A stretch of DNA of 25,235 bases. Source: a virus. Shown here piece by piece: positions 3,592-25,235 of this stretch. Under the pieces are notes generated by a model that saw nothing but the letters and a program-made list of their open reading frames with translations, ran no database searches and was not told where the DNA came from. How positions within the stretch are numbered: the first letter of the stretch is position 1; each line of letters opens with the position of its first letter. The position numbers were made by a program, and so were the translations under genes. The stretch covers positions 1-25,235 of IMG/VR virus record IMGVR_UViG_3300049595_002318. One strand, written 5' to 3'.

Positions 3592-4162
3592 TTTTGTAAA
3601 TGGTAATATAGATACTGATGATTTCTGGCAGCTTAACCCACAGCTTAAGTATATTTCACCTTTTGATAAGGTAAAAGATAGTAAACTTATGTGGTGTGTA
3701 TATTTATGGTGTGACCCTGATCCTAATAATAAACTGTATCGGTTGCGCACAGATGTCAAACTACAAGCTATACAAAAGTACTATTCTAAGTTTGACCCAG
3801 AAAACCCTGACCAGGTAACTATTATTGAAGCATATAATCAATACAGGTTATCACCTGCAGCTCGTGCACTTAAGCAAGAAGAAGAGGCATTAAATATGAG
3901 GTCTGAGATGATTAAACTGGTAAGGACTGAATTACTGGAAAGGACTAGGCAGAACCCTTTTTCTATGGTAGACAAAGATACACAAGCACTCTGGGCCAAG
4001 GTAGAAGCCATGCACAGTTCTACAGCTAAAGCTTATGCACAATATGAAGCTGCCAGGAAGTTATTTGAAGCAGAGTCTATATCACCTAAGGTATATGGTG
4101 GTAGGAAAGAAACGATTAGAGAAAAAGGTAATTTGATTGTACCAAAAGAAGACTATGAATAA
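3584..4162 (+). CDS. Hypothetical protein, possible small terminase
   Basis: 192 residues from the ATG at 3584 (MSDFVNGNIDTDDFW). The frame is open further upstream to 3542, but that start would bury 50 bases of the DUF1573-like gene. The N-terminal third is aromatic and Asp-rich (DSKLMWCVYLWCDPD). From about residue 80 onward it is helical and charged (ALKQEEEALNMRSEMIKLVR), consistent with an oligomerising coiled coil. It overlaps TerL by eight bases. Small terminase subunits usually sit exactly here and have helical oligomerisation regions, but I see no clear HTH, so the role is inferred from position alone. Confidence 0.45.
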   Translation: MSDFVNGNIDTDDFWQLNPQLKYISPFDKVKDSKLMWCVYLWCDPDPNNKLYRLRTDVKLQAIQKYYSKFDPENPDQVTIIEAYNQYRLSPAARALKQEEEALNMRSEMIKLVRTELLERTRQNPFSMVDKDTQALWAKVEAMHSSTAKAYAQYEAARKLFEAESISPKVYGGRKETIREKGNLIVPKEDYE

Positions 4163-6536
4163 TTACTTTATTGGGGATAGACAGGTATATACAGATTACA
4201 TCAGATTAGAAAACATTGATCATTTTCTGACTAACCCTCCTTTGTTACACCCTGATGATCCTAACTATACTGAATATTGGTCGTTACAGTTTAAAAGGTG
4301 TATAGAAGGTTTGTGGGGTAAGATGTTCGACAACTGGCGTTACTGTCCTGGTTTTTTATATTACTATGGTAACTTCTTTGTACTTGAAACTACGAGTAAG
4401 AAAACCAAGTCTACCAAGTATACTGTACCCAGGATAGATGACATTGAATGGGAGATAGCATATTATTTGATGGAGGCATTTGGATTTTCTGGTTTTGAAA
4501 AAGATGATACTTATTCTTGTCTAAAAGTACTTAATAACTCTAATGTCACTGAAGACTATATTAGGTCAGAATATCCTACAGCTATATCTTCATCTGGAAG
4601 TTTAAAGAAGTTTAAACCTGTTGAAGAGTATCTCAAAGAACTTAAATCTCATCCACTAGGCAATGCACTTTATGAAAATGAAACTAGGAATGCTATGATC
4701 CTAGGTACCAGGTCTGGTGGTAAGAGTTATTTTACTGCCGGTGTCATAGAACATAGGTTGATATTTGATGGTGCGATCAGATATGATGAGACCTTCATAA
4801 ACGGTGAACTTACATCTAAGCTTGTCTTAGGTTCATCTTTAACAGATAAGTCCAGTGATTTAGCTAATAAAGTACAGAAGTCTATACTAGCAAAAGCAGA
4901 TCCTGTCATAGGTAGAAGGTTTGGTGTATATGGTAAGCATGAAGATGATGACTTTACACCTAGCCCTATATTTAAAGATATGACTGGTTCGTTAGAAGCA
5001 CCTAATAAGAAAAACCCATACCGACACCAGTACAAAGTCAGTTCTGGTAACAGATGGGTGTCTAAGGGTACAGAGTCTGCACTTTATCATGTGAACTATT
5101 CTTTAAATAAAGGTGATGGTTCACAAGCTGCTGTTGGTGGTAGGTATTCGTTATCTGTTATCGAAGAGGTTGGTTTAGTACCTAATGTGTTGGATATACA
5201 TGTTGCCAATGAAGCTACCTTGACACGTGATGGTAGATTTGGTACTGAATTGTATTTAGGTACATCAGGAAACTTGTCCAGGGTCATAGGTGCTAAGAAG
5301 ATGTTTCTATCGCCACAGGATTACAATATTGTCGAAAGGCACAACAGGCATGGTACTGAAGGTAATGATGGTAAGGTAGCGTTCTTCTTACCTAATTACA
5401 TGATACATAGGGATTGTAAGGATCATAATGGTAACACGGATTATGCTATGGCTATAGCTAAGATCAATGCACTTAGAGCTGACTTTGCTAAATCCAATGA
5501 CCCTAATATCTTAAGGAATGAGAAGATAAACAGACCTTGTTTTGTAGATGAAATGTGGTTGGGTAGTGAAGAACAACTCATGCCTGTTGAAGAGTTACAA
5601 GTCCGTGAAAAACAACTTATCTCATATCAACACTACAAAGACTTGTACACACCTGTATCGCTCATATGGGATTCCGCATCTCCTAATGGTGTTACTTATA
5701 AAGTCGATCATGAAAGCGAACCATATACAGATTGGCCTTTAAACTTAGCTAAGAGAAAAGACCCAAGGGGGTGTCCGGTGATATATGATTTTCCCAGGAA
5801 GATTAACAATGCCATACCATCGGATATGTATATGTTTATAGGCCATGACCCTTATGTAGAAGAAGGGTTTACTAAAGGTGGATCAGTAGGCTCTACTTAC
5901 ATCCTTATGAACCCTGCTTATATATCCAGTGGTATGCCAGGGAATATTATCGTAGCTTCGTATATAGATAAGCCGTTAGGTGGCTTAGATGAATATTATG
6001 AGACACAAGAAAAACTACTGGCATTTTATGGTAACCCACCACAAGGGTTATGGTTTGAAAAGAATAGGGGAGCAGACTGTAGGGCACATTATGTAAGAAA
6101 ACATAAAGCTTATCTGTTATGCTTTACTCCACAGTACCAAGAAGGTATGGATATTAGGCAAAAGAATATTACATCTTTTGGTTACTTGGTAGGTAATAGG
6201 GTTACTAAGCTCAGGCTTGCTAAGATGATGCGGGACTGGCTATTAGAAGAGACAGAGATACACTGTGGTGATCCTAAGTATGATGGTATCAAAAAGAACT
6301 TTGAAAGGATACCATGTTTATTCCTTATAAAACAAATGATAGCTTACGACTTAGACGGTAACTTTGATGCCTTTGATGGTTTCAGGGGTGCCGTACTTGG
6401 CTTACGGGAACACGAGACTAAATTAGCTGCAACTACTTCAAAAGAAAGAAAGCAACAAGAAAAGAAGTTGTTACAGTATTATGTAACAAACGAAAGAATA
6501 TTTAAAACTAATGAACGACGCTATAAAACTTCGTGA
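4155..6536 (+). CDS. terL: Terminase large subunit (ATPase-nuclease)
   Basis: 793 residues from the ATG at 4155; a TTG six codons earlier is also in frame. This is the packaging motor that pumps DNA through the portal and cuts concatemers. Walker A is GTRSGGKS (184-191). Walker B is YSLSVIEEVG (331-340), with the catalytic Glu pair. The coupling motif is YLGTSGN (367-373). The C-terminal RNase H-like nuclease has GHDPY (563-567, Asp565), WFEKNRGAD (633-641, Glu635) and GNFDAFDGF (735-743), giving the three acidic positions expected of the family. It is longer than typical terminases (about 450-650), with an N-terminal region of about 180 residues before Walker A, a size seen in crAss-like and other large Bacteroidota phages. 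It overlaps the portal gene by 26 bases. Arginine is nearly always AGG or AGA here. Confidence 0.95.
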   Translation: MNNYFIGDRQVYTDYIRLENIDHFLTNPPLLHPDDPNYTEYWSLQFKRCIEGLWGKMFDNWRYCPGFLYYYGNFFVLETTSKKTKSTKYTVPRIDDIEWEIAYYLMEAFGFSGFEKDDTYSCLKVLNNSNVTEDYIRSEYPTAISSSGSLKKFKPVEEYLKELKSHPLGNALYENETRNAMILGTRSGGKSYFTAGVIEHRLIFDGAIRYDETFINGELTSKLVLGSSLTDKSSDLANKVQKSILAKADPVIGRRFGVYGKHEDDDFTPSPIFKDMTGSLEAPNKKNPYRHQYKVSSGNRWVSKGTESALYHVNYSLNKGDGSQAAVGGRYSLSVIEEVGLVPNVLDIHVANEATLTRDGRFGTELYLGTSGNLSRVIGAKKMFLSPQDYNIVERHNRHGTEGNDGKVAFFLPNYMIHRDCKDHNGNTDYAMAIAKINALRADFAKSNDPNILRNEKINRPCFVDEMWLGSEEQLMPVEELQVREKQLISYQHYKDLYTPVSLIWDSASPNGVTYKVDHESEPYTDWPLNLAKRKDPRGCPVIYDFPRKINNAIPSDMYMFIGHDPYVEEGFTKGGSVGSTYILMNPAYISSGMPGNIIVASYIDKPLGGLDEYYETQEKLLAFYGNPPQGLWFEKNRGADCRAHYVRKHKAYLLCFTPQYQEGMDIRQKNITSFGYLVGNRVTKLRLAKMMRDWLLEETEIHCGDPKYDGIKKNFERIPCLFLIKQMIAYDLDGNFDAFDGFRGAVLGLREHETKLAATTSKERKQQEKKLLQYYVTNERIFKTNERRYKTS

Positions 6537-9036
6537 AAAGATTAAAGACAGGGAATGGTATAAATATCAACTTGAGAGATATGTACCATACACTGCATCT
6601 CCTATAGTACATGACTATATGGAGATGAAAAAACTCTATGAGTTTGTAAACAATGATCTATCTAAGTTTAAAGATGACATTGCTTACTACTGTGGTTCTT
6701 TAGAGGAATATGGTGCTACTGAAGAAACCCTTGTACCATACAATCCTATACCCAATAAGCTGGAAGTACTTAAAGGTGATCTTCTAGCTCGTGGTCTCAA
6801 TCACAGGATTATGCTCCTTACGGCAAAAGCTATCAGGGATAAAAACCAAGAACTCTTGAAAGCTTTTGAAATGAGTATTAATGAAGACTTATCTCTTGAG
6901 ATACAAAAACAACAAGCTTTGATGGAGGGTATGTCTAAGGAAGAAGTCGATCAGTACATAGAATCACTAAGGACACAACTTTCCCCCAAGGACTTAGCAG
7001 TTAAAACATTTCAAGGAGAGTCCGAGTCACTGTATTCTAAGTTACTACAACATGCAAATGTAGATCAAGCTATTCAGTCTAAGAAACTGGAAACACTGGA
7101 AGACTTGGTTACTGTATCTAGGGTGTTTTTGTATACTGGTTGGAAGAATGGTAGACCTTATATTAAAGTACTTAATCCTTTACATGTTGGGTTTCAGAAA
7201 AGCCCTGATACACAGTTTATAGAAAAAGGTGATTATGTATTTCATTGGGACGAGATTACTGTAGGTGATGCACTCCTTGAATATCAGAACAGGCTCGATG
7301 ATGAAGAGATACAGAAAATCCTTGATTATAGCTATACGCTAAATCCGTTGACAGAAAGTCATATGACAAAACCCGTCTTTGACCATGTAAAGTATTATTC
7401 GTTACTTACTTCACTAGGTGAGTTTAGGAGAAAGGGTATTGGCACCCATCAAGGTAATCAGCTTACTAATTATAATCTTAATCAAACTATCCAACGTCTA
7501 CACTTGGAGTTCAGGGCTTTTAAAGAAGTTATCTTCTTGACCATTAAAGATGAGTATAATACGCATGTGACGTTACAAGTAGATACCGATGTTATACCAT
7601 CATATGCTTCTAAGGTTAAATATACAAACAGGTGGATGGAAGAATCTACTAAGTATGTATGGGTAGATGAAGTTTCTAATCTGGAAATGGAAGCTGAAAT
7701 CTTAATGATACCTAGGAGGTATGAGGTAACAAGGTTAGGTAGTGATATCTTAGTTGATTATCGTGAAGTACCTTTTCAACCTGATTATGGCGATAATCCA
7801 TTTTCTAAGTTTGAACTATCGTATAAAGGTACGATACTGTACAATAGGAACGCTAAGTGGATATCTTTGGTACAACGTGCCATGCCTACAGCATTTCAGT
7901 ACATGGCAGCTAAAAGACTTCAAGACAGGGAAATTAGTAAGTATGTTGGTCAGGAAAGGGCTATTGATGTTGACCAGGTACCTGATGAACTTGGACAAGA
8001 TCACGAGACCAATGCTGAAATGTCTACAGACCCTACACTAAAAGCTGAGGTAATAGCAAGGAAGACAGGTACCAGGTTTTATTCCAGTGGTAGGAGTGCA
8101 AATGGTTTGCCAGCAGCACCTACCAGGACTATTGGTGTTACATATAATGTGGTAGATACCAGCCCTCAACTTCTTAACATACAGAACTTCTGTTCTATGT
8201 TGGATATGGAAGTAGGTATGCGTATGGGTATACCGCCACAAAGGGAATCCCTTACCATGCCCAACACTAATGTTACAGATAACAGACAAGCACTGGTACA
8301 ATCTACATTAGCTACACAGACACTGTTCTTTACTCTTGATATGGTATGGGCACATGCCCTTGACGAGCATATTATGAATATGCGTACTTATATTAAGAAT
8401 TATCTACAGGATAACCCCAACCTCAAACACTTTGACTTGGAATATATGTTGCCTGATGGTACTAAGGAATATATGTCAGTAGAACCTAAACATGTAGATA
8501 AACTTGAAGGTCTAGGTCTGTACCTGTTTGATAATGGTAGGGAACAACTGTACTTTAATTATATGTTGCAGTCTGTATTCTCTTTTGCACAAAATGCTGG
8601 TCAAGGTGTGGAACAGGTATCCAGTGTACTTAAAGCACTCACTACCACTAACTCTGTAGAAGAGATGCATAAGATCTTAGCTACTGAATCAAGATCAATG
8701 CAGGAACGCATAGATAAGCAACAACAGGAACAGATGCGTTTAATAGAAGAACAGAAGAAAGCTATGCGCGAACTTGAACAATATCGTGCTGATCTTAAAC
8801 TGGAAGGAGATCTAGCTAAGATACGTGAGCAACGTATATCTTCCAGGGAGATAGCTGAACTACAGGCACAATCATTAGCTAATCAATATGACATCAATAA
8901 GAACAAAGAAAACGATCTTATTGAAAGAGATAGGGAAAAACAAATATTTGAAGCTAGCGAAAAAGAAAAAGACAGACAACATGAAGAAAACCTTGCCCGT
9001 ATCAAAGCAAGTAGTATGAATCAAAAATCAAAGTAA
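6511..9036 (+). CDS. Portal protein
   Basis: 841 residues. The portal is the dodecameric ring at the capsid vertex that docks the terminase and starts head assembly. Recognition rests on position after TerL, size, and conserved-looking stretches VPYNPIPNKLEVLKGDLL (75-92) and VLNPLHVGFQKSPDTQF (220-236), which match the N-K-x-x-V-L-x-G and P-x-x-V-x-x... strands common to long Bacteroidota phage portals. The region from about 570 to 620 (MGIPPQRESL and TNVTDNRQAL) is typical of the channel-side helical part. From about residue 730 to the end it is a continuous charged coiled coil rich in Glu, Lys, Gln and Arg, likely the extended helical barrel inside the capsid. No maturation protease domain is fused to it. 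Confidence 0.87.
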   Translation: MNDAIKLREKIKDREWYKYQLERYVPYTASPIVHDYMEMKKLYEFVNNDLSKFKDDIAYYCGSLEEYGATEETLVPYNPIPNKLEVLKGDLLARGLNHRIMLLTAKAIRDKNQELLKAFEMSINEDLSLEIQKQQALMEGMSKEEVDQYIESLRTQLSPKDLAVKTFQGESESLYSKLLQHANVDQAIQSKKLETLEDLVTVSRVFLYTGWKNGRPYIKVLNPLHVGFQKSPDTQFIEKGDYVFHWDEITVGDALLEYQNRLDDEEIQKILDYSYTLNPLTESHMTKPVFDHVKYYSLLTSLGEFRRKGIGTHQGNQLTNYNLNQTIQRLHLEFRAFKEVIFLTIKDEYNTHVTLQVDTDVIPSYASKVKYTNRWMEESTKYVWVDEVSNLEMEAEILMIPRRYEVTRLGSDILVDYREVPFQPDYGDNPFSKFELSYKGTILYNRNAKWISLVQRAMPTAFQYMAAKRLQDREISKYVGQERAIDVDQVPDELGQDHETNAEMSTDPTLKAEVIARKTGTRFYSSGRSANGLPAAPTRTIGVTYNVVDTSPQLLNIQNFCSMLDMEVGMRMGIPPQRESLTMPNTNVTDNRQALVQSTLATQTLFFTLDMVWAHALDEHIMNMRTYIKNYLQDNPNLKHFDLEYMLPDGTKEYMSVEPKHVDKLEGLGLYLFDNGREQLYFNYMLQSVFSFAQNAGQGVEQVSSVLKALTTTNSVEEMHKILATESRSMQERIDKQQQEQMRLIEEQKKAMRELEQYRADLKLEGDLAKIREQRISSREIAELQAQSLANQYDINKNKENDLIERDREKQIFEASEKEKDRQHEENLARIKASSMNQKSK

Positions 9037-9071
9037 AGTATTTTATTTAAGTTAATTCTAATTTTGAGACA

Positions 9072-10058
9072 ATGGAAAAAAAATCGCTGTTTGAAGATCT
9101 GATAGGATTTGATGAACCAGTGAACTTGGAAGAACCTGTAGAGAAGGAAGTCATTGAAGACGAACCTCAAGAAACCCCTGATAATAACCTTGAGGATAGT
9201 CCTGAAGAAGAAATTGATGATAGGGTAAAAGTACTCTATGATATTTTGGTAGAGTCCAACATCATACCTGAGGATGAAGAGTTTCAACCTACTGTTGAAA
9301 ACTTTGAAACATTAGTTGCCGATTTACCGGAACAGATGTTTGCCCAGGCAGTATCTACCTTACCTGATTTTGCACAAGAACTTCTTCAGTTAAGTTTTCA
9401 AAAACCTGATCTTTCCGTACAGGATTTTGCCGAGTTCTTTGACACATATTATTTAAGGCCTTCTTCCATAGAAGCGCCTACCACTGATGATGAAGCGTAT
9501 GAGTTCCTCAAACCGCTCATCATGCAGACCAAGTTGTTCCCTACAGAAGAAAAAGCCACACGTTATCTTGACGACTTGTTACAAGATGGTCTATTACTTG
9601 AAAAAGCACAGGAAGTATATAATGACCAACAACAACTTGTACAACAAGAAAAACAAGAACAGTTAGAACTTGTACGTCAACAAAAATTACAAGAAGAACA
9701 ACAGCGTGTGCAGTTTTACGAACAACTTTATGATACTGTACAAAGCCTTGATTGGGACCAGGCCAGGAAACAAGCGGTACTGGAAAACCTCAAACCCGAT
9801 GAAGCTGCACGTAAAAACGACTTGATCAGCAAATCACCAAAAGCACTTGCACAACTTGCTGACATCTACTCGTATTTTGACGAAGCTAAAGGGGAGTTTG
9901 ACTTTAGTGAACTAGGTATACGCAAAGTATCACAAAAAGTAAAAACATCTAAGGATAATATTGAGCGGGATAAGATATCCTCTCATCTTTCTAAAATCAA
10001 AACAAACCCGAAAGATCCTGGTGGTTCTTTCTGGTCTTCATTTAAACAAACCAATTAA
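9072..10058 (+). CDS. Capsid scaffolding protein
   Basis: 328 residues between portal and major capsid genes, the usual place of the scaffold. The first 50 residues are strongly acidic (Glu and Asp, with Pro). A Gln- and Glu-rich coiled coil occupies about 180-225 (QQQLVQQEKQEQLELVRQQK). The tail is basic and ends DPGGSFWSSFKQTN, a plausible capsid-binding tail. There is no protease motif, so it is a scaffold without the maturation protease seen in HK97-like and T4-like phages. The 35-base gap before it is A/T-rich and holds TAATTTTG at 9059-9066, but no matching upstream box (see rejected list). Acidic N-terminus, coiled coil and basic tail are all seen directly; function is inferred from position and composition. 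Confidence 0.8.
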   Translation: MEKKSLFEDLIGFDEPVNLEEPVEKEVIEDEPQETPDNNLEDSPEEEIDDRVKVLYDILVESNIIPEDEEFQPTVENFETLVADLPEQMFAQAVSTLPDFAQELLQLSFQKPDLSVQDFAEFFDTYYLRPSSIEAPTTDDEAYEFLKPLIMQTKLFPTEEKATRYLDDLLQDGLLLEKAQEVYNDQQQLVQQEKQEQLELVRQQKLQEEQQRVQFYEQLYDTVQSLDWDQARKQAVLENLKPDEAARKNDLISKSPKALAQLADIYSYFDEAKGEFDFSELGIRKVSQKVKTSKDNIERDKISSHLSKIKTNPKDPGGSFWSSFKQTN

Positions 10059-10068
10059 TTTTTAAAAC

Positions 10069-11667
10069 ATGTTAAGACGTAGATCGGCTCTTGAGAAAGT
10101 AGTGCGCACAGGTTGGGGAGGCTCTTATGCAGACTCTTTTACCCATGCACAGCTATTTCGCAGTTATGGCCCCACGTATTTCGGCATGGTAGATGCACAA
10201 CTCTTCTCCTCTGAAATTGAATCCAACATTATCAATAAGCCTTGGGTATGGATGACAATGGCACAAGGTAATATGATGACCACACAACCTGGTCACACTG
10301 ATTATTGTTGGAGGCTTGCAGAAGATGTGCAAACCGATGCCAGGATTACACGGGTAGACACAAACCTTCCTACCTATCCAGGTAAAGGTAACACACAGTT
10401 CAAGATTTATCTTGACAGGGGTTGGTTCCATGCACCTGTACTTCTGAAGACAGATAGTGCTGATGCACCACTCCTGCGCATTGTAGGTAGCCCTGTACAG
10501 GTAAGTGCTACTGAATGGGAATATGTTGTACAGCTCCAGTCTGGTGACCCGAATGTATACATCCTCCCTAAGTACCTTGAAACTAACCGTAGGGTTATTG
10601 ACGGTGGTACTTCTGTAGCAGATGAACTCAACTACGAATACGGTGGTGATTACTTCGGAAGCGTATTTGAACTTCAGTCGCACATTGGTTACGTAGCACG
10701 TAAAGTAGAAGTTACCGATAAATTTATCCGTCTTGAAATGGATGGTAAGTCTAACGGTATGAGCTATGGTATCTCTGGTAATGGCGGTGTATATGCTGAT
10801 GGTAAAGCTATCAGCGCAGGTTATCTATACCAGCCAGGTCTTACCGATAAGACTACACCTAAGGTACTTGAGAAAGGTTCTTTCATTTCTATGGCTGAAG
10901 CACGCTTGTCGGAAAGGCTTCTTGAAGACAAGAACTTCATGATGGAATTTGGACAGAACGAAGTTACCTATCACCCGACTACTAAGCGCGTGATGAAAGT
11001 AGCTCCAGGCTGGAGGCAAATTCGTAAAGATGGACATTACCATCCACACAACGGCTCCCTCACACTTTATGACATCTATGATCGCATCCAGACTATATTC
11101 ACTACCCGTTATGGTGTAGGCGAACCAGTAGTAGTCTTGCGTACAGGTAAAGGTGGTATTGAATGGTTCTCTAAACTTGTAAAGGATGAAGCTGGTCTTT
11201 CTCCGTTTACACTTCTGGATAGCTATTTTGTATCGCGTACCAGTTCAGAAATTACACCTAACGCACTTAAGTTTGGTGCCCAGTTTACTGAAATTCTGAT
11301 GCCTAACGGTATCACCTTGAAAGTAATGTACGATCCTACTAAGGACAACCCACGTTACTATCCTGAGAAAGTACCTGGTACCAACTACTCTTATGAGTCA
11401 TATACTTTTGATGTACTTGACCTTGGTAACACTGATGCAGCCCCTGCTGGTGCACGTACCAAGTCTAACATCTCTATGGTATATGAAGATGCGTATGAGT
11501 CTTACTTCATGGTATCCAATGTATATGATATCATGAGCGGTGCTAAGAAAAACGGTGAGGTAGTATCTGCCCTTGACAAAGAAGCAGGTATCTATCGTGA
11601 ATCTTCTTGCGCCTTAGCAGTATGGGATACTAGCCGTATCCTGAGTATGCCATATTTGGCACTGTAA
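10069..11667 (+). CDS. Major capsid protein (HK97-fold expected)
   Basis: 532 residues directly after the scaffold. The N-terminus MLRRRSALEKVVRTGWGG is basic, followed by a region with WVWMTMAQGNMMTTQPG (about 59-75) and GWRQIRKDGHYHP (about 318-330). I cannot point to a textbook HK97 motif, so the assignment rests on order, size and expression signals. Arginine codons switch from AGG/AGA in TerL to mostly CGT/CGC here, as expected of the most abundant phage protein. The start has an A/T-rich leader (TTTTTAAAAC before the ATG) and no Shine-Dalgarno motif, which is normal for strong Bacteroidota genes. No delta domain is evident at the N-terminus, in keeping with a separate scaffold. It is longer than HK97 gp5, close to crAss-like capsid proteins. 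Confidence 0.85.
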   Translation: MLRRRSALEKVVRTGWGGSYADSFTHAQLFRSYGPTYFGMVDAQLFSSEIESNIINKPWVWMTMAQGNMMTTQPGHTDYCWRLAEDVQTDARITRVDTNLPTYPGKGNTQFKIYLDRGWFHAPVLLKTDSADAPLLRIVGSPVQVSATEWEYVVQLQSGDPNVYILPKYLETNRRVIDGGTSVADELNYEYGGDYFGSVFELQSHIGYVARKVEVTDKFIRLEMDGKSNGMSYGISGNGGVYADGKAISAGYLYQPGLTDKTTPKVLEKGSFISMAEARLSERLLEDKNFMMEFGQNEVTYHPTTKRVMKVAPGWRQIRKDGHYHPHNGSLTLYDIYDRIQTIFTTRYGVGEPVVVLRTGKGGIEWFSKLVKDEAGLSPFTLLDSYFVSRTSSEITPNALKFGAQFTEILMPNGITLKVMYDPTKDNPRYYPEKVPGTNYSYESYTFDVLDLGNTDAAPAGARTKSNISMVYEDAYESYFMVSNVYDIMSGAKKNGEVVSALDKEAGIYRESSCALAVWDTSRILSMPYLAL

Positions 11668-17917: not shown

Positions 17918-18331
17918 ATGTCTGCTTTTTCTAATTATCTTGAAGATGCTATTACTGCATGGATTAATGGTACTACATTTCCAACAGCACCTGCTAATGT
18001 ATATTTAGCTTTATATAACAATAGCCCTAGTGATGCTGGAAATTCAGGTACAGAACTTACTACTATATTAACAGGTAGCGCTAATCGTGTTGGTATTGCT
18101 GCTAATCAATGGACTAGGGTAACTGGCGGCACTGCTTCTATTACAAATACAAATGCTATTACTATTACAGCTACTGCTGCAGGTAATGCTACAGCTACAC
18201 ATTTTGGTGTATTTGATGCACAAACAGCAGGAAACTTGTTGTTCCATGGAGCACTTACAGCTTCTAAAACAATTACCACAGGAGATGAAATTAAATTTAA
18301 TGCCGCTTCTCTTACACTAAATATTGACTAA
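17918..18331 (+). CDS. Small phage tail fibre protein, copy 1
   Basis: 137 residues. The N-terminus MSAFSNYLEDAITAWINGTT, then VYLALYNNSPSDAGNSGTEL and the C-terminus THFGVFDAQTAGNLLFHGAL with SKTITTGDEIKF, make a well-known small phage fibre family: F-S-N-Y-L-E-(D/N)-x-(I/L), L-Y-V-A-L-x-x-x-x-P, H-x-G-I-(F/Y)-D and G-x-L-L-F-x-G-x-L. Members are all-beta and usually single-domain. No signal peptide. It follows the adhesin-like fibre after an 11-base gap and is followed by a second copy. Confidence 0.85.
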   Translation: MSAFSNYLEDAITAWINGTTFPTAPANVYLALYNNSPSDAGNSGTELTTILTGSANRVGIAANQWTRVTGGTASITNTNAITITATAAGNATATHFGVFDAQTAGNLLFHGALTASKTITTGDEIKFNAASLTLNID

Positions 18332-18333
18332 CT

Positions 18334-18750
18334 ATGGCAGCAATGTCTAATTATTTAGAAGATGCACTTACTAACTGGTTAAATGGTAGTGCATTTTTAC
18401 CAACATTATCTAGTGGTATATATTTAGCATTATTTAGTAGTGATCCAACAGAATTGTCTTCTGGTGGTACAGAAATTACTACTATAATAACAGGTTCCTC
18501 GTCAAGAGTAAACTTACCTAGTAATTGGGGTACAAGGACTACAGGTGGTATTGGTCAGATTATAAATACAAACTTAATAACTATTACAAGTGCTGCAACT
18601 GGAGAAGCTGTTGCTAGCCACTGGGCTTTATTTAATAGTGCTGTAGGAGGAGATAAGCTTTTACAAGGTAGTCTTGTAGAGTCTAAACCAATAACTACTG
18701 GAGATAGAGTTGAAATAATACCAGGTGGACTTGTAGTTACGTTTAATTAA
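18334..18750 (+). CDS. Small phage tail fibre protein, copy 2 (tandem paralogue)
   Basis: 138 residues with the same plan as copy 1: MSNYLEDALTNWLNGSAF, IYLALFSSDPTELSSGGTE, SHWALFNSAVGGDKLLQGSL and SKPITTGDRVEI. It begins two bases after the stop of copy 1. The ATG at 18334 is used here; the ATG at 18343 matches the start of copy 1 better. The copies share order and many positions but are clearly diverged, so the duplication is old or the second was acquired separately. Two paralogues may make a mixed fibre or give different binding. Confidence 0.82.
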   Translation: MAAMSNYLEDALTNWLNGSAFLPTLSSGIYLALFSSDPTELSSGGTEITTIITGSSSRVNLPSNWGTRTTGGIGQIINTNLITITSAATGEAVASHWALFNSAVGGDKLLQGSLVESKPITTGDRVEIIPGGLVVTFN

Positions 18751-18762
18751 AAATACACAGTA

Positions 18763-20220
18763 ATGATAACTATAAAAAAGAAAGTCAAAATAACTAGTGG
18801 GCAACCACCATTTCAATATCAATGGACTTCTTCTGATACCTGTTTGACTTTCTCTAACCCTACAGGTACGGTTACAGATGCACTTATACAAACTGATTTT
18901 ATACTAAGTAGCCAAACATGTGCAGGTGCAGCTACATTAACTATTACGTCTGCTTGTGGCAATAGTCAATCATTTCCTGTAGTATATACTTCCCCTTGTA
19001 ATGCAGTAACATTAAACCCTATTGTAGAAAAAGACCTTCTTTTCTCTGTTACATCATCTTCTCCAGGATGTAGTACAGGTACGTTTACCTGGTCATATGA
19101 TACTACAATTTTTGAAGTAGTATCTAATACGTCTACAATTTTCTCATCTGGGCTGCAACTTAAGCTAAAAGCTACTACGATAAACAAAACCAATACAAGT
19201 ATTTCTGTAACCTATAAGGATTGTAATGGTTGTGAGGTTACTGCAGTTTACTCATATCAGTTTATAATACCTGTAGTACAACCTATTACAGTAAACTTAT
19301 ATCCTGTAACAACAAATGGTGTTACTAATTATGTAGCTACTAATGTGGCATTACAGTTACCACCAAATACACAACCACTTACTACACTCTTTACATTGCC
19401 TAAGGATATGACAATAACATTTGTCAATTATCCTGGATACTACGAATATAACTTTTCAATACCAGCAAGTATCGTAGATACTATATCGTCTATAAACACA
19501 GATCCAGCATATAATACTGGTTCATACATAGTGAAATCTACACAAGGTATCTGGTCTAATAAAGGTAATGTTACTTTTGTATACAACTTGAACAAAGTAG
19601 AAGCTATTACCGTAGCAAATAAGACAATTACGTTACCATGTGAAGCTTCTGCAGGACAATCACTAGATATTGAAATAACAGATTGTGTAACACTTGCAAG
19701 TGGGTACAGTTTAAAACTTGATAGTTTTACTATACAGGGGACTTCTTTATCGCCAAGCATTACATCAAAAGCACAAAACAATAAGTTATTCATGGTATAT
19801 ACCATACCTACCCCTATAGCTTCTGATGTTGTCAGGTTTACACTTTCTACCACAACTGGTGAAATATCTAAAACAGCTACATTTACTATAGTACCATGTT
19901 CACCAGCACCTACTGCAAACAATGATGCCTTTACGATAGCTGCTAACTCTACGGTCACAAAAGACATACTTGTCAACGATAATGGTAATGGTGTCAACTT
20001 AGACCCTACTACTGTAGAAGTGTCAAATGTACAATCAGGTCTTCAAGTAATAACTAACCCTAACGGTAGCGTAACAATAACAGTGTTAAAAGAAGCTACT
20101 GGATCAAGGACATTTACATATACTGTAAAGAATGTATCCGGTAGGATATCGAACTCAGCTACAGTAACAGTTACCGTAGTCAATGCAGGTCAAAATACTA
20201 ACGTAATACTTTGTGATTAA
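18763..20220 (+). CDS. Ig-like domain fibre protein (Big_9-type C-terminus)
   Basis: 485 residues, all-beta. The N-terminal part (PPFQYQWTSSDTCLTFSNP) resembles PKD/Ig-type repeats of Bacteroidota adhesins, with Cys at several strand ends (CGNSQSFPVV, CNAVTL, GCSTGTFTW, DCNGCEV) that could form disulphides. Residues 383 to about 473 match a bacterial Ig-like (Big_9, cadherin-like) domain: A-N-N-D near the start, ILVNDNGNGV (20-29 of the domain) and the closing TFTYTVKNVSGRISNSATVT. There is no signal peptide. No enzyme motif was seen. Probable role: a rigid fibre or surface-binding spike; specificity unknown. Confidence 0.65.
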   Translation: MITIKKKVKITSGQPPFQYQWTSSDTCLTFSNPTGTVTDALIQTDFILSSQTCAGAATLTITSACGNSQSFPVVYTSPCNAVTLNPIVEKDLLFSVTSSSPGCSTGTFTWSYDTTIFEVVSNTSTIFSSGLQLKLKATTINKTNTSISVTYKDCNGCEVTAVYSYQFIIPVVQPITVNLYPVTTNGVTNYVATNVALQLPPNTQPLTTLFTLPKDMTITFVNYPGYYEYNFSIPASIVDTISSINTDPAYNTGSYIVKSTQGIWSNKGNVTFVYNLNKVEAITVANKTITLPCEASAGQSLDIEITDCVTLASGYSLKLDSFTIQGTSLSPSITSKAQNNKLFMVYTIPTPIASDVVRFTLSTTTGEISKTATFTIVPCSPAPTANNDAFTIAANSTVTKDILVNDNGNGVNLDPTTVEVSNVQSGLQVITNPNGSVTITVLKEATGSRTFTYTVKNVSGRISNSATVTVTVVNAGQNTNVILCD

Positions 20221-20924
20221 TGGCAACAACAATCGTGTTATATAATCAATTACAATATGCCGACATCAACGGATCGTGGTCTTTTGTTGGAACACAGGTA
20301 TCGTTCCCGCCTGCACCTGCCACCTATAATGGTACAGTTAACTTTAGTACTTATCCTGTAGGTACATATGTGTATAGATATACTAAAACTACTAATAGTG
20401 TAACACACACTAGTGATGTAACTATTAACTGGCAAGGTAGTTCTCCAGCAAGGCAGAACGACACTTGTGCTACAGCATTTAACATACAGAACCCTTTGAA
20501 CAAACAGTTCTCTATTATAGTGGAGGACGATAACCGTGATGATTGCCCTAGCGCAAAAGCACCTTCAATACCTAATCCATCGGATTATCCTGTAACATGG
20601 AACCAAGGTGTTTATACAGGGGATTTATGGTATGAAGCTAAACTACCTTTACGTGAGTACACTTACACTTTACAGATAGAAATATCTAGTGAGTCATATA
20701 CAGATGAATTTGCAGCTACAGGTTTTGCCGCACAGCTTTACACAAATACAATTTCTACAAACTGTAACGATAATGTGTCAGCTACAAGCGTATCATCACC
20801 AAGTATATCTAAGACATTAAAACTTGCATATACAGTATTTACAGGAACATCACCACTAATAAAGCTTAGGATAGCTTCTTTAAAAGCAGGGTTTTTTCAA
20901 ATAACATTTACAACAGTTTGCTGA
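20220..20924 (+). CDS. Ig-like fibre or adhesin protein
   Basis: 234 residues. The first 75 residues form an Ig-like domain: GSWSFVGTQVSFPPAPATYN, then GTVNFSTYPVGTYVYRYT and SDVTINW. The plan matches Bacteroidota surface-protein Ig domains (G-x-Y-x-Y-x-V/T). Cys at 93, 114, 175 and the last residue suggest disulphides. The start overlaps the previous stop (TAATG). No signal peptide and no enzyme motif. It is probably part of the same fibre as the preceding gene. Confidence 0.55.
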   Translation: MATTIVLYNQLQYADINGSWSFVGTQVSFPPAPATYNGTVNFSTYPVGTYVYRYTKTTNSVTHTSDVTINWQGSSPARQNDTCATAFNIQNPLNKQFSIIVEDDNRDDCPSAKAPSIPNPSDYPVTWNQGVYTGDLWYEAKLPLREYTYTLQIEISSESYTDEFAATGFAAQLYTNTISTNCNDNVSATSVSSPSISKTLKLAYTVFTGTSPLIKLRIASLKAGFFQITFTTVC

Positions 20925-21220
20925 TGCCTACGATAATATTTACCAATACGTTTGACTGTGGCCCTGGTGTTACAGGTGCTTCTATTAGAAAGGTAAAGAA
21001 CCTATATGATGCTACAGGCACTGGTCAACTTATCTGGGATCTTGACAATGGTGATTTACCTAGTGATTTAAACAATTACTTCGATGTGTTTCAGAACGGT
21101 AAACGGTTAGAGTATCCTGCAGAATACACAGTAAATGAGTTTATAACAGCTAATACATCCAGGATAAATATAATTAACCCCATACCTATGACGTATTACA
21201 CATTAATAAAATACGTATGA
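20924..21220 (+). CDS. Small virion or fibre protein with NG-strand motif
   Basis: 98 residues from the ATG at 20924, where TGATG couples it to the previous gene. An upstream in-frame TTG at 20918 exists but is less likely. The C-terminal half reads FDVFQNGKRLEYPAEYTV followed by INIINPIPMTYYTLIKY. This is the v-x-x-N-G-x-r-l-x-x-x-x-d-Y-t-v, then i-x-f-x-x-p pattern of a small beta domain common in phage appendages. N-terminal half not recognised. Confidence 0.55.
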   Translation: MPTIIFTNTFDCGPGVTGASIRKVKNLYDATGTGQLIWDLDNGDLPSDLNNYFDVFQNGKRLEYPAEYTVNEFITANTSRINIINPIPMTYYTLIKYV

Positions 21221-21864
21221 AGCATTTACTTGTTATACTTGTTGCTTTAATACCTACATTTTTATTTGGTCAGATACCAAATATAAACCCTAGGAATATT
21301 AGAATACTGTATCAGACTACAGGTAAAGGTACTGTATGGCATGGCAACGATACCATTAACTACACACCGCTTACAGATGGTAATGCTTGGCTGCATTTAG
21401 ATACTGTAAATAACAAACTTTATAGTTACGTACAGAACCAGTGGAAACTAGTTACTGCTGGTGGTGTGGAATCTTTTTACACTAATGGTGATACACTCTT
21501 TTTAGAAACTGCAGATACTACGTTTTATGTACTTTCACCTGTGCAAGGACTTGAACTTGATAGTATATCTACAAATAAAGTAAAACTCGACATTACCGGT
21601 TCTACACAAGATGTGTATATACAAGGTGGTACAAACATACAGTTACAAAAACAACAGGATACTTTGCTTATCAACAGCCCTACTTCGGTGTCTATATCAG
21701 AAGTAGATTTACCTGCAGGTGTTTTTGTGATAGCAGATAACCAAAACACTGTTGTCTGGGACGGTATAAACGTAATAGGTATAATATCCAACTCTAACAA
21801 GAAACGTATAACGTTGACTGTAAACGGTCAAAGTGCAAGTTTTGAAGTTTGTAAATGTGAATAA
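21217..21864 (+). CDS. Sec-exported fibre-like protein
   Basis: 215 residues with a clear Sec signal peptide: MKHLLVILVALIPTFLFGQ, predicted cut after Gly18, leaving Gln19. The mature part is beta-rich. WLHLDTVNNKLYSYVQNQW (about 59-77) then KLV is a common fibre linker motif, and a Gly-Gly turn leads into FYTNGDTLFLETADTTFYVL. The C-terminus FEVCKCE has Cys. It shares an architecture with the giant fibre at 22039: signal peptide, D-x-L-x-x-x-x-N-x-W-x-L, Gly turn, then D-T repeats. It starts in the ATGA of the previous gene. An exported protein in a virion block is unexpected: it may be a periplasmic or surface protein, or a fibre captured from a host secreted gene. Confidence 0.65.
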   Translation: MKHLLVILVALIPTFLFGQIPNINPRNIRILYQTTGKGTVWHGNDTINYTPLTDGNAWLHLDTVNNKLYSYVQNQWKLVTAGGVESFYTNGDTLFLETADTTFYVLSPVQGLELDSISTNKVKLDITGSTQDVYIQGGTNIQLQKQQDTLLINSPTSVSISEVDLPAGVFVIADNQNTVVWDGINVIGIISNSNKKRITLTVNGQSASFEVCKCE

Positions 21865-21865
21865 C

Positions 21866-22036
21866 ATGAGATACATAATTATGTTATCTTTGCTACTGTT
21901 TACATCAAGTATACAAGCACAGTATAACTTACCTTATAAGAAAAAAGATACACACAATGTAAAGTGTATCAAGTTCAAAAAAGTTTATAAAGTACCTGCT
22001 TATATTAAACGCAGGAATAAGAAAAAACTATTCTGA
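21866..22036 (+). CDS. Small basic secreted peptide
   Basis: 56 residues from the ATG at 21866, one base after the previous stop. The signal peptide MRYIIMLSLLLFTSSIQAQ is predicted to be cut after Ala18, leaving Gln19. The mature 38 residues are very basic: 12 Lys and 2 Arg against a single Asp, with one Cys. A frame open further upstream (21833) would overlap the previous gene and is not needed. It could be a membrane-acting peptide, a surface or periplasmic binding protein, or a cofactor of the flanking exported fibres. No family recognised. Confidence 0.55.
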   Translation: MRYIIMLSLLLFTSSIQAQYNLPYKKKDTHNVKCIKFKKVYKVPAYIKRRNKKKLF

Positions 22037-22038
22037 CA

Positions 22039-25000
22039 ATGAAAAGATTAATAACTTCTTTATTGTTTTTCATACCTTTTTTTGTATCTGCACAGGTACA
22101 AAAAGATACGGTATCTGTTATTTCTAAAGACCAGATACCTTTAGGTACAGCTGACAGCACTGAGTTTTATTTTATAGAGAACGGTGCCTGGCGTAAAGTA
22201 ACCACGCCTATGTACATTACCCTTTTAGAAGGTAAAAAACTACGTGCTTCGACTAAGGTGTATATTGTAAATTCTGTTTCAGATACATCTTCTATATCTA
22301 ATCCTTATGAAGGAGATATTGCTGTCAACCTTACCAAAGATACCCTTATCATAAGGGACTCTTTAAACTGGGTATTATTTTTTGGTGGACCAGGAGGGGG
22401 TAGTAGCAATATTGATACCATATACAACGGTTACGGCATCGTCACAAGCCCATCGCCAATGGTGTCAAGCGATACCATACGCGCAGACACATCTGTACTT
22501 GCGACAAAATCTTTTGTCAACAACAGCTTGTCTACAAAACTTGACAGCATTGCAGGTGAAGTAACTACATTCAACATTCGTGATACAGCTATTACAACAG
22601 GTAAAATTGCTACTGGGGCTGTAACTGGTGCTAAACTTGGAAGCATTACAAGTACTGAACTTCGCACAGCATTAAGTGACGAAACTGGAACTGGCTCTGC
22701 GGTGTTTGCAAATAACCCTGTTTTTACTGACATCATTCTAAATGGAACAATCGGAAATTCAACAGGCAATATTCTGCTTACCAATAATTTAATGTCAAGG
22801 TGGGGGATAAGTGCTACTGGTAGTAGTGCATCGGACTTGATTATTACAAATTGGTTAGACCCAAATAAACGACCATTTTTTATTAAGCGTGACAACAACT
22901 ATGTTGGCATCAACACGGGTGTACCATTGAGACAATTACATGTCGTTGGTAAGGTGCGCATAGATACCTTAAACAGTACTCCGGGTGCATTAATCGGGCT
23001 TGGAACAGACAGCACCATTGTAAGGCTTGATCCCGCAACGTACCCTACTATCACAGAGCTTAGTTATGTCAAGGGTGTAACATCTGCATTGCAGACACAA
23101 TTCAGCAATAAACTCGATAGCCTTGCTGGTGAAGTCACCACATTTGTAATCCGCGATACTTCCGTTACATGGGCAAAACTCGCTCAAGCTGTCAAGGATT
23201 CGATAAATCGTCCTACTACCAATGCAACATATTGGAGCACTGATGGTGCGGACTTAACGCTATCAATGACTGATAGTATCATCAACCTTGCTAAAATACA
23301 TGGATTTGTAATTAGGGCACAATCAGGTGCTACTTCAAATGTTATCGCAAACTTTAATTATCCGGATGATGACGACCTTGGCAAAATTATGGCCGTAACT
23401 TCAGAAGATGAAAGCGCAAGTTATTCTGTACAGCTATCTGGTATTAGGATAGGTGCTATAGATTCTTCGTTTTTTAACTTAGTAGATGATCAAAGCGTAG
23501 TCTTTTCCGCTCAAAAAACAAGCGATGGTAATAGATGGGTACTTGTATCCAATACTGTCGGTGCCGGCGGCGGTGGAGGTGGTGGCGTAACAAGTATTAC
23601 AGCTGGAACAGGGTTGACTGGTGGTACAATACTTACTTCCGGGACAATAGCGGCGGATACTAATTTCTTGGTGACGGTAAACGATACCGCTTCGATGTTG
23701 ACTAATTATATTAACATTGCCGACACCGCTACTATGTTGTCCACGTACATCAATGCTGCTGATACTTCATTGATGCTGACTAATTACATAAATGTAGTTG
23801 ATACTTCATCGATGCTTTTACCATATCTGAAAAAACAAGATACTACTGCCATGTTGACGAATTACATAAACATAGCAGACACAGCCTCCATGCTATTGAC
23901 TTACATTAACCGAGAGGACACGGCAGCAATGTTACTTTCTTATTTGCGTAAAGCGGATACCTTGGCAATGTTAAGTACTTACGTCAACTTTGCGGATACC
24001 GCTTCAATGCTTTCGACTTACATCAATGCTTCGGATACAGCTTCAATGTTGACGAATTATATCAACGCCGCTGACACCGCTGCCATGCTGACTAATTACA
24101 TCAATGCCGTGGATACGGCTGCTATGCTGCTAACCTATATCAACAGAGAGGACACAGCGGCGATGTTGACTAATTATGTTAACTTCATAGATACGCTAAC
24201 AACGATAGGCACTAAAGCTAATTTAGCGCTTAAGTTAAACGCAGCGGATACAGCTTCTCTATCTAACCGAATTAATTTGAAGCTGAACATATCCGATACA
24301 ACGGTATTTGCCAGGGATTTTGAGTTGGCGGCGAAGTTAAATATTTTGGATACTACCGCTATGCTAAACCCATATTTAAAAAGAACAGTGGATAGCATTA
24401 TGTTTAAAACAACTTACGATGGTATTGCGACTACCGGGGAGATGATATGGAACGATCAATCAGGGACAGTGCATTTAGGGATGACGGGCAATATCGAAAT
24501 ACCTCTTGGACAGGGAGAAGCGCACATGGTAAGGAACGTTACAGGTACGACTATTGCAAAAGGTAAAGTTGTTTATGTTAGTGGTGCTACCGGGCAAAGA
24601 CCAACTATTGCACTTGCAGATGCGGATAGCGAAGCAGCAAGTTCATCCACATTTGCTATTACCGCCGAAGCAATAGACAATAACGACACGGGATTTGTTT
24701 TTACAAGTGGATATATCAAGGGTATTAACACCAGCGCAATCGCTCCCGGTAGCGCACTTTGGTTGGACACTGTTCCCGGTGGGTTTACAGCTACGAAACG
24801 CGTTGCCCCTGTGCATACGGTACTTGTCGGCTACTCTATTACACAAGCTGCCAATGGCACAATATTTGTCAAAATCGTAAACGGTCAGGAACTTGGAGAG
24901 CTGCACGATGTAGATGTAACAAGCCCGGTAAATGGTAATCTATTGCGCTATAACTCTACCTCTGCAATTTGGGTAGATGCACAAGCGGACAGTGCGTCTA

Positions 25001-25235
25001 TTGCAACAAATGCGATTAAGAACATACATATTACCAATAACGCGATCAATACCTCTAAGATTGCGGATTCTACTGTAACCAGCGTAAAAATAGCAACTGC
25101 TACGATTGCAAATGCAAATATTGCCAATGCTACGATTACAGGGGCTAAACTTGTTGATTCGACAATCACCGGGGTTAAAATAGCAAGTTCAACCATCGGA
25201 ACTGCCAATATCGCCAATTCGTCTGTTACTGGGGC
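22039..25235 (+). CDS. Giant Sec-exported tail-fibre protein (partial, no stop in window)
   Basis: An open frame from the ATG at 22039 runs to the window edge: 1065 codons plus two bases, no stop seen when translated line by line. It starts two bases after the previous stop. Signal peptide MKRLITSLLFFIPFFVSAQ, cut expected after Ala18 with Gln19. Parts in order: an N-terminal D-T-rich domain; Gly linker GGPGGG (116-121); KLDSIAGEVTTFNIRDTA (167-184) repeated in near-copy at 358-375; SDETGTGSAVFANNPVFTD (213-231), a common fibre motif; GINTGVPLRQLHVVGKV (290-306), like the V-G-I-x-T-x-x-P repeat of bacterial fibres; a second Gly linker (508-516); thirteen 13-residue repeats (549-717); a domain with GKVVYVSGATGQRP; HDVDVTSPVNGNLLRY (956-971); then decapeptide repeats to the edge. 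Composition from about 22400 is more GC-rich than upstream fibre genes. Confidence 0.9.
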   Translation, partial: MKRLITSLLFFIPFFVSAQVQKDTVSVISKDQIPLGTADSTEFYFIENGAWRKVTTPMYITLLEGKKLRASTKVYIVNSVSDTSSISNPYEGDIAVNLTKDTLIIRDSLNWVLFFGGPGGGSSNIDTIYNGYGIVTSPSPMVSSDTIRADTSVLATKSFVNNSLSTKLDSIAGEVTTFNIRDTAITTGKIATGAVTGAKLGSITSTELRTALSDETGTGSAVFANNPVFTDIILNGTIGNSTGNILLTNNLMSRWGISATGSSASDLIITNWLDPNKRPFFIKRDNNYVGINTGVPLRQLHVVGKVRIDTLNSTPGALIGLGTDSTIVRLDPATYPTITELSYVKGVTSALQTQFSNKLDSLAGEVTTFVIRDTSVTWAKLAQAVKDSINRPTTNATYWSTDGADLTLSMTDSIINLAKIHGFVIRAQSGATSNVIANFNYPDDDDLGKIMAVTSEDESASYSVQLSGIRIGAIDSSFFNLVDDQSVVFSAQKTSDGNRWVLVSNTVGAGGGGGGGVTSITAGTGLTGGTILTSGTIAADTNFLVTVNDTASMLTNYINIADTATMLSTYINAADTSLMLTNYINVVDTSSMLLPYLKKQDTTAMLTNYINIADTASMLLTYINREDTAAMLLSYLRKADTLAMLSTYVNFADTASMLSTYINASDTASMLTNYINAADTAAMLTNYINAVDTAAMLLTYINREDTAAMLTNYVNFIDTLTTIGTKANLALKLNAADTASLSNRINLKLNISDTTVFARDFELAAKLNILDTTAMLNPYLKRTVDSIMFKTTYDGIATTGEMIWNDQSGTVHLGMTGNIEIPLGQGEAHMVRNVTGTTIAKGKVVYVSGATGQRPTIALADADSEAASSSTFAITAEAIDNNDTGFVFTSGYIKGINTSAIAPGSALWLDTVPGGFTATKRVAPVHTVLVGYSITQAANGTIFVKIVNGQELGELHDVDVTSPVNGNLLRYNSTSAIWVDAQADSASIATNAIKNIHITNNAINTSKIADSTVTSVKIATATIANANIANATITGAKLVDSTITGVKIASSTIGTANIANSSVTG
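23683..24189 (+). repeat. Thirteen tandem 39-base (13-residue) repeats
   Basis: Thirteen consecutive units of exactly 39 bases encode D-T-[ASTL]-x-M-L-x-x-Y-[ILV]-x-x-x, such as DTASMLTNYINIA, DTATMLSTYINAA, DTSSMLLPYLKKQ and DTAAMLLTYINRE. Asp, Thr, Met5, Leu6 and Tyr9 hold in all units. Beyond 24189 the pattern continues in degenerate form (DTASLSNRINLKL, DTTAMLNPYLKRT). Codon choice differs freely between copies (GATACC, GACACC, GATACT; GCTTCG, GCAGCA, GCTGCC). The period suggests a trimeric fibre shaft. Confidence 0.97.
25006..25235 (+). repeat. Decapeptide repeats (30 bases) at the window end
   Basis: From residue 990 the fibre carries seven full ten-residue units: TNAIKNIHIT, NNAINTSKIA, DSTVTSVKIA, TATIANANIA, NATITGAKLV, DSTITGVKIA, SSTIGTANIA, then NSSVTG at the edge. 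Consensus is (D/N/S)-(S/A)-T-(I/V)-T-G-x-K-I-A. Units like this are common in phage fibres (the "AITTAKIADG" type). They run beyond the window, so total copy number is unknown. Confidence 0.9.

Follow-up and report, generated by a model that had tools for sequence, protein, structure and literature searches.

On balance, we favour the view that two genes at the end of a crAss-like phage fragment, genes A and C, belong to a family of the phage's own tail fibres that are exported by Sec, cleaved, possibly glycosylated, and joined to virions outside the cytoplasm, probably at lysis. The predicted signals, their confinement to a single module, a conserved junction behind them, and the synteny of the tail locus can all be read from the sequence. 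Throughout, the window is the whole stretch of DNA analysed, a 25,235-base virus record.

A fibre module with signal peptides in a crAss-like phage

The window is a fragment of a crAss-like phage. It encodes a crAss-type major capsid protein (PF23898, E 9e-33), and its terminase is related to TerL of Cellulophaga phage phi14:2 (28.7% identity, E 7e-77). The predicted capsid protein, together with the terminase and portal of the late block, supports membership of the phage in Crassvirales. The features of the window are as follows.

4137-6536, + strand: large terminase, late block, crAss-like
6511-9036, + strand: portal, late block, crAss-like
10069-11667, + strand: crAss-type major capsid protein (PF23898)
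18763..20924, + strand: 485-aa gene (Big_9 domain) and 234-aa gene, adjoining the module upstream, without signal peptide, kept in relatives
20918..21220, + strand: 100-aa gene upstream of gene A, without signal peptide, kept in relatives; its stop overlaps the ATG of gene A
21217..21864, + strand: gene A, 215 aa; signal peptide in codons 1-18, Gln19, then the conserved N-terminal fibre domain
21217..21270, + strand: predicted signal peptide of gene A, MKHLLVILVALIPTFLFG followed by Q; rule-based prediction
21866..22036, + strand: gene B, 56 aa; predicted signal peptide 21866-21919, Gln19
22039..25235, + strand: gene C, encoding a fibre of 1065 aa or more; predicted signal peptide 22039-22092, Gln19
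22039..22515, + strand: N-terminal domain of gene C (second exported-fibre type, by prediction), with homologous signal-peptide genes at other loci
23670..24370, + strand: repeats (..DTASMLTNYINIADTATMLSTYI..) within gene C, rich in D-S/T-hydrophobic motifs

The initial annotation had described three adjacent genes, each with a Sec-type signal followed by Gln19, and we confirmed the open reading frames, their starts, and the codon in question. Codon 19 is CAG in A, B, and C (at 21271, 21920, and 22093), and each N-terminus combines a basic n-region with a hydrophobic stretch free of charges and a small residue at -1. Gene A starts at an ATG (21217) that shares bases with the stop codon before it (ATGA), and the ATGs of B and C lie 1 base and 2 bases beyond the preceding stop, respectively; the three starts are therefore secure. 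The same overlap between fibre start and preceding stop recurs in three relatives (G001, G003, and G004). Misannotated start codons were ruled out by these overlapping stops.

After its Gln, gene A carries a fibre domain with the motif 'N-P-R-N...QTTGxG..RG...LDTVN'. This domain stands alone in the window and is fused in relatives, where it forms the N-terminus of a single giant fibre; by this comparison, gene A by itself is less than a whole fibre. AlphaFold modelled gene A poorly (pLDDT 40). The mature part of gene B is very basic, with a net charge of +13 over 38 residues. The reading frame of gene C runs to beyond 25233, where it is cut by the contig end, and its product matches the tail fibre/spike families phrog_892 (E 6e-10) and phrog_28766 (E 2e-9), which upholds its description as a fibre of at least 1065 residues. 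Fibre relatives match another tail fibre/spike profile, phrog_4636 (E 5e-26). PDB sequence searches with the N-domain profile and with gene C gave no match. Homologues of the gene C N-domain were found in four loci (L126, L129, L136, and L137; E 3e-21 to 2e-20), placed directly after an A-type first fibre. For gene B, no homologue was found among the fetched loci.

Signal peptides with Gln at +1 are confined to the module

Single-sequence searches of the phage collection and of viral contigs returned no direct homologues for genes A and C, and homologues were reached by capsid-anchored retrieval and alignment-based search. Retrieval via the capsid gene yielded three relatives of 102-105 kb (G001, G002, and G003) and the shorter records G004-G009. 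The comparison covered the fibre region and the remainder of G001-G003, and most of G004. Signal peptides were predicted by a fixed written rule set, applied unchanged to all genomes scanned, which calls for a basic n-region, a hydrophobic 9-mer, a small residue at -1, and the absence of acidic residues from the core and from everything ahead of it.

Among approximately 440 open reading frames scanned in the window and G001-G004, 13 carried a predicted signal followed by Gln, and 12 of these lay in the fibre module. The remaining one is a small basic peptide in G002, and a scan of short reading frames revealed its homologue, also outside the module, in G001. The clustering in the module led us to reject chance hydrophobic starts. 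At the module site, the relatives encode a giant fibre of 1389-2780 aa (G001-G004) or 2733 aa (G008). Next in line are a 312-314 aa protein and then a 210-aa protein in G003 and G004, and a 207-aa protein in G001; all of these, including the fibres, have signal and Gln. The G001 fibre contains Fib_succ_major and Peptidase_S74 domains, and a C-terminal S74 domain was also found in G008. Fib_succ_major is known from secreted bacterial proteins.

The Gln at the junction is invariant in the seven crAss-like sequences aligned (7/7). The predicted signals span 15-20 residues in close relatives and 13-61 across the wider N-domain family, some members of which have long basic n-regions. Since the lengths vary in this way, the common length of 18 residues in the window, to which the initial annotation had attached meaning, is a coincidence. 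We saw no lipobox, the +1 residue being Gln and not Cys. No Pfam match to a T9SS C-terminal domain was obtained in the complete relatives; the C-terminus of gene C lies beyond the window.

The junction is conserved across the N-domain family

A profile search showed that at least 169 viral contigs carry the N-domain of gene A. We kept 80 of them, which provided 77 new loci with the open reading frame. Three of these frames were truncated; the other 74 have intact N-termini, and every one shows a small residue before Gln (Ala in 65, Gly in 8, and Ser in 1). The junction was defined as the last pair of small residue and Gln ahead of the QTTG motif, and the distance from Q to this motif is nearly fixed at 13-15 residues, indicating a single site and no artefact of the search. 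The possibility that homologues begin farther downstream, without the signal segment, is not borne out, since all 74 keep the junction. Together with the confinement to the module and the invariant Gln of the close relatives, this agrees with the earlier proposal of Bacteroidota-type Sec export under the Q-rule.

Mean pairwise identity is 31% for the signal h-regions versus 78% for the 16-residue block of the mature protein. The properties of the signal are kept while its letters diverge, which is the predicted pattern of a working, cleaved signal. The N-terminus of the fibre is conserved and the bodies are variable. In genome_contigs, the N-domain occurred at two loci only, both on Saprospiraceae (Bacteroidota) MAG contigs. 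Both encode a signal-peptide fibre and then a signal-peptide protein of approximately 200 aa, and one adjoins a distal-tail gene.

The genes lie at the receptor-binding position of the tail locus

Four loci of the N-domain family are crAss-like, and 45 of the 77 have siphovirus-like neighbours (tape measure or distal tail protein). A distal tail protein is encoded no more than 3.5 kb upstream of the fibre in 39 loci, and a related endolysin downstream of it in 39 loci. Many siphovirus-like loci share the order tape measure, distal tail, fibre, approximately 200-aa gene, and endolysin. Judged by gene order, the module site is the usual place of receptor-binding proteins. The corresponding interval of phi14:2 encodes virion proteins, annotated by tandem MS (MS/MS), without signals.

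The approximately 200-aa signal-peptide gene lies, as a rule, directly downstream of the fibre. A profile of this third gene (207-210 aa) detected homologues in 34 loci (E 1e-45 to 5e-5). Its product has a confidently predicted structure (pLDDT 80), for which PDB and viral-structure searches gave no credible match. This partner may be a folding or attachment helper.

Analogous modules occur in Cellulophaga phages

In Cellulophaga phages from three families (Pachyviridae, Assiduviridae, and Duneviridae), three to five signal-peptide genes follow one another in a module. Almost all of these genes have Gln, and their annotations read structural protein, pectate lyase, or tail fibre. According to record notes, MS/MS detected gp091-094 of phi10:1, gp101-104 of phi19:1, and gp085-087 of phi18:3 in virions. 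Signals are predicted in 11/11 of these MS/MS-annotated module proteins, with Gln in 10/11; their virion presence rests on the deposited annotation, and the modules are not homologous to that of the window. Among the remaining MS/MS-annotated proteins, those checked in phi10:1 and phi19:1 are without signals. Fibres from three families that differ in their C-termini share the N-terminus MKHTISIVLFFILSLGLNAQTVEGTVG..., with close variants. The C-terminal module ..NQKLIYWRY was found on proteins with and without signal. The signal therefore goes with the fibre N-terminus rather than with a particular class of protein body.

Fibres with homologous bodies from Pseudomonas, Nitrincola, and Acinetobacter phages lack a signal, as do those from Synechococcus, Pelagibacter, and Bacillus phages. 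Within Bacteroidota, the tail genes of crAss001, phi14:2, phi4:1, phi38:1, and phi18:1, and of Flavobacterium phage 11b, FCL-2, B124-14, and immuto, are signal-less. In FCL-2, one small gene carries a signal. The idea that the signal is a habit of all Bacteroidota phage fibres was rejected on the strength of these nine phages. As the tail genes of several phages do without signals, we regard the export route as common, yet not obligatory, in Bacteroidota.

Candidate O-glycosylation sites in the fibres

Non-cytoplasmic proteins of Bacteroidota are glycosylated at D-S/T-A/I/L/V/M/T sites (PMC12871550). We counted the motif D[ST][AILVMT], deriving the expectation from shuffling, with E-S/T-hydrophobic and D-S/T-other as control motifs. 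Gene A contains 6 sites versus 0.8 expected, and gene C 33 versus 7.7. Enrichment was 6.9x in the N-domains, 5.2x in the approximately 200-aa partners, and 2-fold in the fibre bodies, compared to 1.01x in 253 proteins outside the module. In the pooled sets, neither control motif was enriched. Three conserved columns account for much of the raw excess; when distinct alignment columns of the N-domains were counted, the motif occurred 33 times versus 31.6 expected, with the control motifs at approximately 0.25-0.7 of expectation. In the exported fibres of Cellulophaga phages, the motif was depleted (16 versus 38.1 expected), which could reflect avoidance in those hosts. O-glycosylation of the window's fibre family is likely, judging from these counts.

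Discussion

How the fibres would be cleaved and glycosylated, and where and when they would be attached, we infer as follows. The tail fibres of the Bacteroidota crAss-like phage, its presumed receptor-binding proteins, would be synthesised as Sec pre-proteins and, once translocated, be cut by signal peptidase I before Gln19; a host glutaminyl cyclase would convert this residue to pyroglutamate. In the periplasm, the mature chains would fold and form trimers, and the O-glycosylation system of the host may act there on their numerous D-S/T-hydrophobic sites. Virions would be assembled in the cytoplasm and acquire the fibres once holin and endolysin open the cell, probably at lysis; until the holin acts, particles in the cytoplasm have no access to fibres in the periplasm, so loading would be late. 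Docking would proceed through the conserved N-terminal domain, which starts exactly at the mature N-terminus.

Tail-fibre assembly is taught as a cytoplasmic process. On the grounds that fibres are not exported, the initial annotation had seen in these genes a likely separate system. Their products occupy the fibre position and match fibre and spike profiles, and in cultured Cellulophaga phages the analogous signal-bearing proteins are recorded as virion proteins detected by MS/MS, which argues against such a separation. The main rival to exported fibres, though an unlikely one, is nevertheless a non-virion role such as exclusion, in which the exported proteins remain in the periplasm or on the surface of the infected cell, or are shed, and serve to block receptors (superinfection exclusion) or as decoys or adhesins. 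Such a role would suit the convincing export signals, the accessory look of the small basic exported peptide and the approximately 200-aa exported partner, and the existence of Q-rule proteins without assigned function in other phages (PMC10367356). It fits poorly with genes placed between distal tail protein and endolysin, with the profile matches and the MS/MS annotations, and with the lack of a visible lipobox and, in the complete relatives, of a T9SS C-terminal domain match; the suggestion of a receptor-blocking or exclusion apparatus is not supported. The points that weigh against exported fibres are that the virion evidence consists of record notes on non-homologous Cellulophaga modules, that the fibres of many Bacteroidota phages are signal-less, that the glycosylation motif is depleted in the Cellulophaga fibres, and that few conserved columns carry much of its raw enrichment. 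Moreover, we found no precedent in the literature (open papers) for the export of a tailed-phage fibre.

Three further readings are improbable. The hydrophobic N-terminus might stay uncleaved as a membrane- or tail-binding anchor, by which a fibre kept in the cytoplasm binds the virion or is later inserted into the target membrane. Fibre-attachment domains are generally N-terminal, and some of the signals, with long n-regions, reach a total length of approximately 60 residues. Yet the small -1 residue and the Gln at +1 are fixed while the hydrophobic sequence, the n-region, and the length drift, and since an anchor offers no reason for conservation of the Q-rule, we disfavour this reading. Unrelated module proteins carry the same junction, and homologous fibre bodies from phages of other phyla are without such an N-terminus, which also counts against it. 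Dual use, to which we give an equally slim chance, would divide the fibre into an exported pool (surface or soluble form) and a retained pool, which lacks the signal through a downstream start or escapes Sec, with the latter alone on virions. Alternative starts are compatible with the sequence, and giant S74-type fibres usually fold in the cytoplasm; against this, the conserved block begins immediately after the Gln, the stop of the preceding gene shares bases with the annotated ATG, in relatives as in the window, and no conserved internal start was noticed in the alignments. Slightly less probable still is the capture of secreted proteins from a host, with the signals brought along as passengers, a reading for which the Fib_succ_major and Peptidase_S74 domains of the G001 fibre speak. 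For the N-domain, capture of a host adhesin, as had been suggested, is unlikely: at least 169 viral contigs carry it versus two loci in genome_contigs, one of them beside a distal-tail gene, and the signals are strictly kept across large divergence.

The proposed exported fibres resemble tailed-phage fibres and tailspikes, including those chaperoned by Peptidase_S74, in their locus between distal tail genes and endolysin, in a conserved N-terminus with exchangeable bodies, in their profile matches, and in the S74 domains of G001 and G008. They differ in the Sec signal with Gln at +1 on every module member here, which, to our knowledge, is not known for tailed-phage fibres. The fibres are thus of a known kind, and it is the proposed export route that had gone unrecognised. 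P22 offers a partial parallel: its tailspikes attach to finished tailless heads in vitro, so that a receptor-binding protein joins a finished particle outside the cell, whereas the P22 tailspike is cytoplasmic and has no signal peptide.

The Q-rule describes Bacteroidota signal peptidase I substrates with Gln at +1, which are host proteins (PMC5837995, PMC10653852). The module genes share this signal architecture and Gln but are fibre-like and lie in a phage tail locus, and the word 'phage' is absent from the Q-rule paper. Phages of Porphyromonas gingivalis also use the host Q-rule; their five Q-rule proteins, of unassigned function, are discussed as modifiers of the host surface and, unlike those described here, are not tied to fibres or virions (PMC10367356). 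The Cellulophaga fibre modules (phi10:1, phi19:1, phi18:3, Ingeline, and Nekkels) likewise have consecutive fibre or pectate-lyase genes with signal and Gln ahead of the lysis genes, but with N-domains that are not homologous to those of the window by the searches used. We found no earlier mention in the literature of the signals in Cellulophaga phages, and no link of fibres to export in the flavophage paper.

Fibres are probably exported in this crAss-like phage and in many unrelated Bacteroidota phages and join the particle afterwards. The broader proposition, which we regard as evenly balanced, is that widespread tailed phages of Bacteroidota have fibres that are exported by Sec, trimmed under the Q-rule, O-glycosylated in some lineages by the periplasmic machinery of the host, and loaded at lysis, with intracellular particles being fibreless. 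If true, a conserved export route would revise the view of how some Bacteroidota phages mature and would explain how phages gain host-made glycans on their fibres. It would also tie infectivity to the host signal peptidase, glutaminyl cyclase, and O-glycosylation machinery. In uncultured phages, a signal peptide followed by Gln in the tail locus would serve as a sequence rule that points to the receptor-binding proteins and to the host phylum.

Genes upstream of the fibre module and domains of a fibre predicted to be exported

The following window genes lie upstream of the module; the fibre in the last line is from another locus.

Window 17918-18750: two adjoining paralogues of gp80, the fibre I protein of podophage GP4 (PF23140; E values, 1e-31 and 2e-18)
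Window 18763-20220: 485-aa protein without a signal peptide; Big_9 Ig domain at the C-terminal end
L041:10208-18550: 2,780-aa fibre with a predicted export signal; internal Fib_succ_major domain and C-terminal Peptidase_S74 chaperone domain

The 485-aa protein matched the SprB repeat below threshold only, and its gene is also kept 5' of the module in relatives. On the viral contig L163, a TnpB-like OrfB_IS605 gene with a Cas12f1-like TNB domain (8201-9412) lies a short way upstream of an exported fibre gene.

Signal peptides outside the module

Very basic small peptides with a predicted Sec signal followed by Gln were also found outside the module in two crAss-like relatives.

G001:C1:87226 (L055)
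G002:C1:68618-68863 (L060)

These peptides (74 to 81 aa) are homologues of each other and resemble window gene B in style but not in sequence. The crAss-like phage phi14:2, whose own fibres lack signals, encodes an 85-aa signal-peptide-plus-Gln protein, adjoining an OmpA-domain protein (g001-g002; L051:9-1278). FCL-2 gp71 (L089:45363-45806), a 147-aa signal-peptide-plus-Gln protein whose start, GIATTTPTETLDVNG, is fibre-like, is encoded far from the FCL-2 tail genes.

In exported virion fibres of Cellulophaga phages (L080-L086), the O-glycosylation motif D[ST][AILVMT] was depleted (16 versus 38 expected), opposite to the trend in the window's family.
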